Shown piece by piece: positions 24,370-28,465 of a stretch of DNA of 32,122 bases. Position 1 is the first letter of the stretch; every line of letters begins with the position of its first letter. The stretch spans positions 1 to 32,122 of the forward strand of contig JAUYKI010000004.1 in the NCBI GenBank assembly GCA_030700025.1. Direction: 5' to 3'. The notes beneath the pieces are model-generated. The model ran no database searches and had not been told where the DNA came from. It saw only the letters and a program-made list of their open reading frames with translations. Origin of the DNA: a bacterium (GTDB lineage: Bacteria; Patescibacteriota; Minisyncoccia; UBA6257; 02-FULL-45-10c). A program made the translations under genes and the position numbers.

Positions 24370-24399
24370 CTGAATACGCCACTCGCCTGGCGTATTCAG
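24370..24399. repeat. AATACGCC hairpin repeat, copy 1
   Basis: CTGAATACGCCA and TGGCGTATTCAG, 12-bp perfect stem with a 6-nt loop. Related copies are at 27773-27798 and 28440-28465, so the three bracket the accessory island. Confidence 0.8.
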
Positions 24400-24557: not shown

Positions 24558-25157
24558 TTAGTCCTTCTTAATACGCATTTTTAAGTTATTGATGTCTATA
24601 AAGTCAACCATATTCTTAAGCTCTGCGAATAAATTTCTTAATTTAGTAGAAAGTCGCGAAGTAGAATATCGGGGTCCAGCTTTCACCTTCTTACCACTTG
24701 AGACCACGTGCACTTTTACACTTTTATCAACTAAATTCCTTATTAAGAATTCAAAATCGCCATCGCCAGTAAAAAGATAAAATTCGTTATCTTTTGCCGC
24801 GTTTTCAATTGCGTCTACGGTAAGTTCGACATCGCAATTTGATTTTCGGGTATATCCCATATCAACGTGTTCAATGAATAAGTGCTGGCATGAGGGACAA
24901 GATAAATTAATTTCTCTGTCTTTATTCTTGTATGCAAAAACAGTTTTGGCTCGCAAGGTACAACCGATTTTTTCCAAATTTTCGAGCATAGCAATCATAT
25001 CTAAATCACCCTCATCAACGCCTGCATAAAAAAATACTTTATCACACTGCCACTCATTTTTTAAAAATTGAAATAATTTATGCCAATCAATAATAAAGCC
25101 AAGTAATTTTTTAGTTGTTCCGTCAGTATTGTGATAATCAATAAAGGCGTATTTCAT
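24558..25157 (-). CDS. NYN-domain (LabA/DUF88-like) putative ribonuclease, 199 aa
   Basis: PIN-like fold nuclease of the NYN family. The first strand has the acidic residue in KYAFIDYHNTDG (Asp7); later acidic motifs are KSNCDVELTVDAI and LFTGDGDFEFLI, which together form the expected metal site. A CPSC...H segment near residues 90-96 suggests a small zinc insertion. Such proteins cut RNA and often accompany mobile or defence genes. It starts 9 bp beyond the end of a remnant gene; TTGAAA and TATAAG upstream may form its promoter, and no ribosome-binding site is seen. Ends at the bidirectional terminator 24527-24556. Confidence 0.82.
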   Translation of the reverse strand: MKYAFIDYHNTDGTTKKLLGFIIDWHKLFQFLKNEWQCDKVFFYAGVDEGDLDMIAMLENLEKIGCTLRAKTVFAYKNKDREINLSCPSCQHLFIEHVDMGYTRKSNCDVELTVDAIENAAKDNEFYLFTGDGDFEFLIRNLVDKSVKVHVVSSGKKVKAGPRYSTSRLSTKLRNLFAELKNMVDFIDINNLKMRIKKD

Positions 25158-25166
25158 CTTATGATC

Positions 25167-25289
25167 TTATAATAAAAATGGTTGGTTTTCAATAACAATT
25201 TTAATTTCCTCCGGGGTGAGGGCGTAGAGTTTACCTATGGTAAACGGACGAGGAAAGGGATACTGGATATTCTTCTCTTCCGCGGGTGT
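25167..25289 (-). pseudogene. 3' remnant of a restriction/methylase-type gene
   Basis: An open minus-strand frame without start codon reads PFPRPFTIGKLYALTPEEI followed by KIVIENQPFLL and a stop. The LYALTPEEIKIV pattern resembles the C-terminal end of type II/IIG restriction-methylation enzymes (LYxLTxEEIxIVE). It fills the gap between the helicase fusion and the NYN gene and overlaps the fusion's last codon region. Probably what is left of a deleted restriction gene; family assignment is tentative. Confidence 0.45.
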
Positions 25290-25291
25290 TT

Positions 25292-27301
25292 TTATTTACT
25301 ACTTAATTTAAGAATCTCTTGTACGACACCCTGAACGCTGTCGCCCTCCTCGGGCGTTATAGGCACGTGTGCCTTATTTGTGCTTTTGGGTAGCAGTATT
25401 CTCCGACCATCTTTTTTGTCATACATCTTAATTGTTACATTATTACCAAGAAGAGCTATAACTCTATCACCTGTATCTGCCTTTAACTGTTGGCGGCACA
25501 AGACAAGGTCTCCATTGTTAATGCCCGCGAGATTCATAGAATCGCCTTCGGCGCGAAGAATAAAATATAGATAGCCGGGTTTTAACTTACGCGCATCAAC
25601 GTCAATGTATTCTTCGATATTTTCCTCACTCAATATTGGATTCCCGCACGGGGCTGATCCGACAATGGGGACGCGCGTAGTGGCAAATGTACTTGGTTTC
25701 AAAATTTGTGTCAGTGTTTTCTGATTATCCTCGTTTTTTTCGATTCTGCTTTTAAAAAATTGTTCAGTCTCTTTGTCTACAAAATATACATAACATCCCC
25801 TAATTCCACGAGTCATGAGTGTTTTATAAATATTGATGATGTATCTTTCCAATTCAGCAGAATCCGTGATTCCCCTCCATCCATTTCTGTCCTCATACTT
25901 GTTTTCGTCTATTGTTAATTTTTTATTTTTGGCATCGTACGCTAATTCTGGACCTACTATAACACCCACATAATTAAGATCATATCCTTGAATCGTATGA
26001 ATGCATCCAACCTCGTTGATGGCGTTCGTTGAATTGACCCAGTTAGTTGTGGTGCTGTTCCATCTCATTTTAAACCCATTGATATCAATATCGGTTGCGC
26101 TGGAGTCTCCTCTGCTAACCCACGGCCACGCAAAACCCGCAACAACCCTACATAAACTAAATTTATTATTTTTGATTTTAATATCGTCAACCATCTGCCC
26201 CACATCATCATAAATTTGGAAGTCAAAATTATTAAATTGTGCGTCAAGGGCCTTCTCTCCTTCGAATATGTCATTTATAAATGTAATGTACTTCTCTCCA
26301 CCCCTAACTCTGTGCTGACTTGTTAAGAAATGATGGGTTGCTTTAAGGTCTTTAAATTGCGTGGCATGAACATCGGTAGGTCTAATGCTTTGCTTTTCGT
26401 CATAAAAAAGAATCTGTTGCTTTGAGCATTTAAGAACCCAATCCAGCTCCGTGCCATTCTGCCCAAGCCCTAGCCGCGCATTCATTGCGTCGTGGCTTCT
26501 ATAATTTGTTAGATTTCTGCGTTGTCGCAAGCGATGGGCCTCATCGACAATTAATAGGTCATATTTTCTGTTCCCGACCTCGCTGGGACCTATAACCATA
26601 TTTCTTGAAAGTCCAGACACGCATGAAAATGCGTCTTTGATTGATTCACGCAACGACGTCATTGATATAACTAACCCAACTATAAGATTTTTGGTATTTT
26701 CGTCTTCTTGAAGTAACTTGACCAAATACGTCGCCAATATGGTCTTGCCCGTTCCTGGACCCCCATTTATAATGTGCGCGCTTGCCTGGCCAGTTCTAAC
26801 GACAGCATATAGCTCCTCAGCAACCGCCATCTGATCCTCTGTAAGTGCCTTATACGGAGAATACTTGAACAATTCGCTGTTCTCAATGTCCTTTAAATCA
26901 CGTTTCACCAGCGCTAACTTCTGAAGTTTTTCCCAAATTGTTTCCAATTTTGCGCGATATCGCTCCTTATCAAAATAATTGTGGTTAACCAACCCCTTAT
27001 TGCCGTTTTGTAAGCGGAGAGTGCCTTCTGTAGAAAAATATTGAATTAATTGCGATTCAAGATCAAGTGTCGCGGATTTATTGTATTCCTCATCTACTAT
27101 GACGTGTAATCTATTTAATCGAATTCGATCCTCGTTTTCATAATGTTGTCGGCTTCGATTATGTAGGCTGGTTGTTTCTCCAATATACACTTCGTTCTCA
27201 TTTTCGAGAATGTAAACTACTGGCCAATCTCGCCCAAGTGGAAATTTTTTAATACCCTCGAGTCCCGCTTTGTTAAATATGAAAGTTTGGATATCGGACA
27301 T
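25292..27301 (-). CDS. GIY-YIG nuclease + DUF2075 helicase + UmuD-like S24 protease fusion, 669 aa
   Basis: Three domains in one chain. Residues 25-110: GIY-YIG nuclease (VVYILENENEVYIGE, Arg near 49-51, Glu82). Residues 145-530: DUF2075 superfamily helicase/ATPase with Walker A GGPGTGKT (180-187), Walker B LLIVDEAH (249-256), QHR (329-331) and IHTIQGYDLNYVGV (434-447). Residues 545-669: LexA/UmuD-type S24 domain with Ser588 in AEGDSM and Lys625 in NVTIKM, the catalytic dyad, and a Cys-Gly pair (552-553, SAPCGNP) where UmuD is cut. All catalytic residues are present. The inference is that RecA-type or other stress signals trigger self-cleavage, releasing or inactivating the nuclease-helicase. 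It starts 3 bp after the MazG-like gene, so the two are translationally linked. Confidence 0.9.
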   Translation of the reverse strand: MSDIQTFIFNKAGLEGIKKFPLGRDWPVVYILENENEVYIGETTSLHNRSRQHYENEDRIRLNRLHVIVDEEYNKSATLDLESQLIQYFSTEGTLRLQNGNKGLVNHNYFDKERYRAKLETIWEKLQKLALVKRDLKDIENSELFKYSPYKALTEDQMAVAEELYAVVRTGQASAHIINGGPGTGKTILATYLVKLLQEDENTKNLIVGLVISMTSLRESIKDAFSCVSGLSRNMVIGPSEVGNRKYDLLIVDEAHRLRQRRNLTNYRSHDAMNARLGLGQNGTELDWVLKCSKQQILFYDEKQSIRPTDVHATQFKDLKATHHFLTSQHRVRGGEKYITFINDIFEGEKALDAQFNNFDFQIYDDVGQMVDDIKIKNNKFSLCRVVAGFAWPWVSRGDSSATDIDINGFKMRWNSTTTNWVNSTNAINEVGCIHTIQGYDLNYVGVIVGPELAYDAKNKKLTIDENKYEDRNGWRGITDSAELERYIINIYKTLMTRGIRGCYVYFVDKETEQFFKSRIEKNEDNQKTLTQILKPSTFATTRVPIVGSAPCGNPILSEENIEEYIDVDARKLKPGYLYFILRAEGDSMNLAGINNGDLVLCRQQLKADTGDRVIALLGNNVTIKMYDKKDGRRILLPKSTNKAHVPITPEEGDSVQGVVQEILKLSSK

Positions 27302-27304
27302 GGA

Positions 27305-27652
27305 TTATAGCTTTGTGTATTTCGTATGCTTACCTTTTGCTTTTTCAACCGGATATTTTTCCTCATTTTTTAAAATCTTATTTTCAAGCGCCTCTAAAAC
27401 GTCGATCTTGAGATCGTAGCTCATTAGTAAAACCCAATAAAGTACATCCGCTAATTCTTCGCCAATCTCGGCTTTATTGGTTTTAATATATTTTTCAATT
27501 TCTTCTTTGCTTTTCCATTGAAAATGCTCCATGACCTCTGCCGCCTCCAAAACCAAAGACAGAGCAACATCTTTTGGATTATGAAATTGCTTCCAATCTC
27601 GTGCGTCACGGAAAGCTATAATTCTTTTTGTTAAATCGTTAATATTTTTCAT
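27305..27652 (-). CDS. MazG-like nucleotide pyrophosphohydrolase, 115 aa
   Basis: All-alpha NTP pyrophosphatase of the MazG/RS21-C6 type, cleaving (d)NTPs to monophosphates. Magnesium motifs: LEAAEVMEHFQW (EAAE at about 36-39) and EIGEELADVLYW (ExxEELxD at about 62-69). Single-domain length. The stop codon is separated from the downstream fusion gene by 3 bp, which implies one functional unit: damaged or phage-related nucleotides handled by MazG, nucleic acid handled by the fusion. The palindrome ATTATTTAAATAAT sits directly before the ATG and there is no ribosome-binding site. Confidence 0.88.
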   Translation of the reverse strand: MKNINDLTKRIIAFRDARDWKQFHNPKDVALSLVLEAAEVMEHFQWKSKEEIEKYIKTNKAEIGEELADVLYWVLLMSYDLKIDVLEALENKILKNEEKYPVEKAKGKHTKYTKL

Positions 27653-27772: not shown

Positions 27773-27798
27773 CAATACGCCAGACGAGTGGCGTATTC
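27773..27798. repeat. AATACGCC hairpin repeat, copy 2
   Basis: CAATACGCCA and TGGCGTATTCG around GACGAG. Same family as 24370-24399 and 28440-28465. Confidence 0.75.
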
Positions 27799-28439: not shown

Positions 28440-28465
28440 CAATACGCCACTCGGGTGGCGTATTG
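28440..28465. repeat. AATACGCC hairpin repeat, copy 3
   Basis: CAATACGCCA and TGGCGTATTG, 10-bp perfect stem, 10 bp beyond the stop of the dockerin gene. Confidence 0.8.

Follow-up and report, generated by a model that had tools for sequence, protein, structure and literature searches.

Among the known users of a LexA-type self-cleavage switch, LexA and phage CI are repressors and UmuD is a polymerase subunit. Here we describe a locus in which the self-cleavage domain is attached, repeatedly and exchangeably, to an effector enzyme. The locus lies in a stretch of 32,122 nucleotides, the whole of which was analyzed and is called the window below, from a patescibacterial genome (830 kb, 18 contigs, 98.7% complete); Patescibacteria are very small, little-studied bacteria. 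Its main gene encodes a single chain of 669 amino acids (aa) with a GIY-YIG nuclease domain, a Schlafen-group-3 (SLFN-g3, DUF2075) SF1 helicase domain and a LexA-type S24 domain.

The S24 self-cleavers studied so far have an Ala-Gly or Cys-Gly bond and a Ser-Lys dyad in common, and LexA is inactivated by cleavage (PMC10020695). The LexA repressor (TIGR00498, PF00717) resembles our fusion in its S24 domain, which has a (C/A)-G site, a Ser and a Lys at equal spacing. The fusion differs from it in lacking the LexA DNA-binding domain and in carrying a nuclease-helicase, not a repressor, as its N-terminal cargo. UmuD has the same Cys-Gly scissile bond, and the S24 domain of the fusion matches the UmuD profile (NF007621, E 8.1e-16); the spacings in UmuD, 35 from Gly to Ser and 37 from Ser to Lys, equal those of the window protein. 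UmuD, however, loses a short tail before it binds a polymerase, whereas the fusion would release an enzyme of about 552 aa.

Other described proteins resemble the helicase part. Gene pairs of a MazG-like protein and a nuclease-SLFN-g3 protein without S24 share the helicase family and the adjoining MazG-like gene; they differ in having no built-in self-cleavage domain and are usually without assigned function. The helicase domain of human SLFN11 and SLFN14, as well as RecD2, share the SF1 helicase fold but have neither S24 nor a MazG partner. SLFN proteins carry an N-terminal RNase of another fold. PADLOC profiles of the anti-phage proteins AbiO and Nhi match only the helicase region of the fusion (E ~1e-14); the match stops before S24, and the models include no MazG partner or S24. 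No catalogued defence system in PADLOC corresponds to the locus, with partial helicase or nuclease matches only and none for MazG, and NCBIfam holds no such system.

Fusions of LexA to DNA methyltransferases in Patescibacteria likewise join a LexA-type S24 domain to a DNA-modification enzyme. They differ in that S24 is N-terminal to the enzyme, the LexA DNA-binding domain is intact and the S24 domain is only about 30-37% identical to that of our fusion. They are single chains (L161:1574-3136, L162 and L164-L175, for example L175:1765-3301), with enzymes of both the N6/N4 type (L161) and the C5 type (L175), and occur in at least 12 genomes of the phylum sample. From their sequences, they look like SOS-type self-cleavage placed on modification enzymes.

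A literature search, which was incomplete, turned up no publication that treats DUF2075 together with MazG or a fusion of S24 to a helicase. The component families are known, but their combination, modular exchange and conservation appear to be undescribed.

A nuclease-helicase-S24 fusion adjoining a MazG-like gene

The features of the locus, all on the minus strand, are as follows.

25292..27301, minus strand: fusion gene, 669 aa (ORF and Pfam profile matches)
27035..27220, minus strand: GIY-YIG nuclease domain, residues 28-89 (Pfam PF01541, E 1.1e-5)
25775..26776, minus strand: SLFN-g3/DUF2075 helicase domain, residues 176-509 (PF09848, E 1.8e-66)
25649..25735, minus strand: variable linker between helicase and S24, residues 523-551 (gapped, variable alignment)
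25325..25669, minus strand: LexA-type Peptidase_S24 domain, residues 545-659 (PF00717, E 3.3e-20)
25643..25648, minus strand: predicted scissile bond Cys552-Gly553 in the motif VG[SC]APC-G (invariant in 20/20 fusions)
25538..25540, minus strand: Ser588, predicted nucleophile (kept in 20/20 fusions)
25427..25429, minus strand: Lys625, predicted general base (kept in 20/20 fusions)
27305..27652, minus strand: MazG-like NTP pyrophosphohydrolase, 115 aa (PF12643, E 4.5e-16)

An earlier note on this DNA, made from the letters alone, had described a fusion of three domains, and the Pfam profiles GIY-YIG, SLFN-g3_helicase and Peptidase_S24 bear it out. Cys552-Gly553, Ser588 and Lys625 are where the note had placed them, and it was correct that the cut site lies between helicase and protease. 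The MazG-like gene (27305-27652) ends 3 bp upstream of the start of the fusion (25292-27301), again as described.

Each part carries the residues expected of its family. The nuclease domain has the two active-site Tyr, the Arg and the Glu of GIY-YIG enzymes: Y30, Y39, R49 and E82 were unchanged in all 12 GIY-type fusions, and H53 in 11 of the 12. The helicase domain matches PF09848 and has intact Walker A and B motifs; GxPGTGK(T/S) and DEAHR, variable positions aside, were invariant in 16 fusions. The MazG-like protein has an all-alpha fold, with an all-helical model at pLDDT 92, and an EXXE...EXXD metal site, which is E36xxE39...E66xxD69 and invariant in 16 loci.

The full-length model of the fusion had a mean pLDDT of 70. 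Structure prediction of the three domains, as the earlier note had proposed, was informative for the helicase, which resembles RecD2, SLFN11, Dna2 and RecBCD RecD (Foldseek E ~1e-9 for SLFN11/SLFN14 and RecD2), but not for the S24 part, most of which was below pLDDT 50. The linker sits upstream of the scissile bond, and its residues 523-540 had low pLDDT.

The S24 domain is complete and LexA-like

The S24 domain matches its profile across the entire domain and aligns from end to end with LexA and UmuD chains of solved structure. In the alignment, Ser588 falls on the catalytic Ser of LexA chains from E. coli, which is Ala in the mutant 1jhc, and Lys625 on the LexA Lys in VTVK. In the window protein, the spacing is 35 from Gly to Ser and 37 from Ser to Lys. 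The LexA profile (TIGR00498, E 4.8e-23) matched better than the UmuD profile, so the S24 domain that the earlier note had called UmuD-like is nearer to LexA. The TIGR00498 score was under the LexA equivalog cut-off, and so the domain is not LexA itself; no LexA_DNA_bind match, which would mark the N-terminal winged-helix DNA-binding domain of LexA, was found in the fusion.

Two patescibacterial LexA-like repressors (L178:1987-2721 and L177:2101-2724) have a Cys-Gly site in place of Ala-Gly and are 47-51% identical to the S24 domain of the fusion. Repressors of this type are a plausible source of the S24 module.

Conservation and distribution of the fusion

There were 20 distinct fusion loci, namely the window, L031 and L047-L064, after duplicates between collections were merged (L002 = L055, L033 = L062, L034 = L064). 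Two of them (L056 and L064) are truncated at contig ends, and L057 has a frame break, which might suggest an artefact or a chance fusion without function. This explanation is extremely improbable because 19 other loci, in many lineages, have the same architecture as the window, all the catalytic sets are conserved, and S24 has been exchanged between two nuclease types.

These two types differ at the N-terminus. In 16 of the 20 loci the protein was of the GIY-YIG type or too truncated to assign, while L058, L060, L061 and L062 had another N-terminal region, marked by an ID-(x)n-ELK motif. Pfam names no domain in this alternative N-terminus, which we read, from the motif, as a putative PD-(D/E)XK-like nuclease.

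The earlier note had proposed a search for homologues that keep the C-G site and the MazG neighbour, and its reading would have fallen had they lost the C-G site or the Ser/Lys dyad; they had not. All 20 fusions kept [AS]PC-G, followed by a Ser at a distance of 35 from the Gly and a Lys at 37 or 38 from that Ser, that is, a Cys-Gly bond and a Ser-Lys dyad at the fixed spacing of the self-cleavers. Of the 134 columns in the S24 alignment, 49 were invariant among the 20 fusions and 85 differed. Upstream DNA was readable in 18 loci, and in 17 of these the MazG-like gene adjoined the fusion, at distances from -4 to +3 bp; the sole exception was the frame-broken L057.

Where the record names a phylum, all hosts of the fusion were Patescibacteria. 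The records include Parcubacteria, Paceibacterota, Taylor-, Nomura-, Kaiser-, Zambryski- and Vogelbacteria, and one labelled Saccharimonas. The distribution is patchy: the fusion was absent from all 60 genomes of family- and order-level relatives, and six of 384 genomes of the class had a match at E 1e-50 or better. When viral contigs were scanned with the window protein as the single query, no relative turned up, and an alignment-based viral scan found S24 proteins only, none with an adjoining helicase or MazG. Plasmids and phages were also examined for S24 fusions and gave only helicases without S24 or stand-alone S24.

In three loci, a gene of about 230 aa with an HNH-like motif lies directly downstream of the fusion (L031:3565-4260, L062:6590-7284 and L058:6629-7336). 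It is conserved among the three, is split into two frames in L062 and receives no name from Pfam. This gene is a possible optional third component.

MazG-helicase pairs without S24

The pair of MazG and helicase also occurs without S24. It was present in all 10 S24-less GIY-type loci, in all eight other patescibacterial loci (non-GIY type) and in seven of the 14 loci inspected on plasmids or in phages, among them loci of Bacillota, of a haloarchaeal plasmid and of a Microcystis phage. Besides Patescibacteria and this phage, the pair was carried by plasmids of Lactiplantibacillus, Ligilactobacillus, Priestia and Halalkalicoccus. Some pairs stand beside restriction genes or DUF3578 genes, the restriction-gene neighbours being seen on plasmids. 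From its occurrence in Patescibacteria, plasmids and phage, MazG and the SLFN-g3 helicase form an old, mobile pair, probably with a defence function, to which S24 is the patescibacterial addition.

A role in DNA repair, or in uptake of transforming or damaged DNA, would be the alternative to anti-phage defence. The modelled helicase does resemble RecD2, RecBCD RecD and Dna2, MazG-type enzymes clean damaged nucleotides, and the S24 link points to SOS. Against this, the locus is AT-rich (about 34-42% GC, compared with 44-45% in the rest of the window), close relatives and most genomes of the class lack it (0/60 and 6/384), and the related pairs are on plasmids and in phages, some of them beside restriction genes. 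Such patchiness, base composition and relatives look like those of a horizontally moved accessory system, not of core repair, and we consider the repair or uptake role unlikely. Defence is the probable role as judged from gene context: the S24-less pairs adjoin restriction genes on plasmids and occur in phages.

A RhuM family gene was seen near the MazG-helicase pair in nine compared loci, including L047 (377-1327), which also has Fic.

S24 as an exchangeable module

When GIY-YIG fusions were compared with the alternative-nuclease fusions, the S24 domains were 76% identical (68-87), but the remainder of the proteins was only 27% identical (22-30). Within the GIY type, the values were 73% for S24 and 55% for the remainder. 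High identity of S24 against low identity of the remainder across the types indicates that selection and exchange act on S24 as a unit.

The history of the nuclease-helicase part agrees. Ten GIY-type homologues (L003-L006, L032 and L187-L191; 520-549 aa) have no S24 at all. On the tree of the nuclease-helicase part, the S24-bearing rows need five changes, of which at least three are forced by well-supported branches. An AU test on this tree rejected a single clade of S24-bearing rows (p 0.0013). For example, L050, with S24, and L032, without it, were sisters with full support. As the S24-bearing rows do not form one clade, S24 was gained, lost or exchanged repeatedly; by these comparisons of sequence, S24 is a mobile add-on module.

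Because the relatives without S24 work without the domain, S24 might be an optional accessory, such as a dimerizer or recruiter. Under this explanation, S24 would be a structural or recruiting module, for dimerization or for binding of RecA or the clamp, and its self-cleavage would be incidental or slow. Its optional place on the nuclease-helicase tree fits, and UmuD-type S24 domains also serve as binding subunits, as UmuD' does in Pol V. Yet a pure binder need not keep Cys-Gly and Ser-Lys in 20 of 20 proteins while 85 of 134 columns vary, which makes this explanation quite unlikely. A LexA-like ancestor accounts for part of the conservation of the cut site, which a fast recent spread would preserve as well. 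Our reading is that S24 is probably an active self-cleaving switch.

Proposed mechanism

The best explanation of the whole, with a probability of about 0.5 as read from sequence, is that S24 is a self-cleavage switch on a pair of MazG and nuclease-helicase. A pair of a MazG-like pyrophosphohydrolase and a nuclease-SLFN-g3 helicase would have acquired a C-terminal LexA-type S24 domain in Patescibacteria. In the intact cell, S24 would hold the nuclease-helicase paired as a dimer or restrained, as suggested by the dimerization of the S24 domains of LexA and CI. Single-stranded DNA coated with RecA, arising from damage, phage or incoming DNA, would form RecA*, which would promote the cut between Cys552 and Gly553. 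This cleavage would free a nuclease-helicase of 552 aa, about the size of its natural S24-less relatives. The freed enzyme would then attack DNA, while MazG would hydrolyze its nucleotide substrate.

The trigger and the direction of the switch are less firm than the switch. RecA* may well be the trigger, at slightly less than even odds; RecA is encoded in the genome of the window and in four other fusion-bearing genomes. That cleavage turns the enzyme on is our tentative preference. For GIY-type fusions, the N-terminal product of cleavage is predicted at 551-565 aa, close to the 520-549 aa of the relatives without S24, and because of this likeness in length we favour a cut that frees a working enzyme over one that inactivates it.

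Cleavage might instead be an off-switch, with S24 dimers as the active form and RecA* disarming the enzyme after damage, so that the repair intermediates of the host would be spared from cutting. LexA and CI do lose function on cleavage through loss of S24 dimerization, and the catalytic residues would be equally conserved under such a model. The relatives without S24 (10 GIY-type and eight other-type loci), though, keep the same operon with no dimerizer, so presumably they function unfused. ClpXP removes the LexA fragment through its AA end, but the N-terminal fragment of the fusion would end in APC and have no AA end. We regard the off-switch as unlikely.

A bolder reading, less likely than not, is that of a mobile defence nuclease-helicase that would be switched post-translationally by a built-in LexA-type autoprotease answering RecA filaments. 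If this is true, immunity would respond to DNA damage directly and with no transcriptional step, in a genome that yielded neither LexA nor UmuD. SOS sensing would then switch a nuclease on or off directly, and two nuclease-helicase types would share the sensor as a plug-in module. This hypothesis would further explain what the widespread, so far unexplained pair of MazG and DUF2075 genes does, and would provide Patescibacteria apparently without LexA with a route for sensing damage.

Host genome and surroundings of the locus

Neither LexA nor UmuD was found in the genome of the window, the assembly of which is incomplete, since its only other S24 match, considered as a LexA, was rejected as signal peptidase I.

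The neighbourhood of the fusion contains a further gene.

24558-25157, minus strand: NYN-domain gene (PF01936, E 1.8e-13)

The earlier note had counted this gene, a restriction-gene fragment and hairpin repeats towards a defence or DNA-damage system. They are present, if weakly, but are not conserved with the system and lend it no support. The NYN gene is AT-rich like the fusion block. It was rejected as a component because, among S24-bearing and S24-less loci, a homologue was recognized in only two (the window and L051); another NYN-like ORF lies beside L187.

The hairpins are a perfect palindrome, AATACGCC-N8-GGCGTATT, at 24373-24396, 27774-27797 and 28441-28464 of the window, and two of its copies flank the NYN-fusion-MazG block. 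Besides these three in the window, which are among six exact copies genome-wide on four contigs, there is one copy with a mismatch; shuffled sequence had none by chance. The palindrome was rejected as a component because further copies lie elsewhere in the genome.

Between the fusion and the NYN gene, an open stretch of about 40 codons (window 25170-25290, minus strand) reads TPAEEKNIQYPFPRPFTIGKLYALTPEEIKIVIENQPFLL* and is possibly the end of a restriction-type gene that has been lost.
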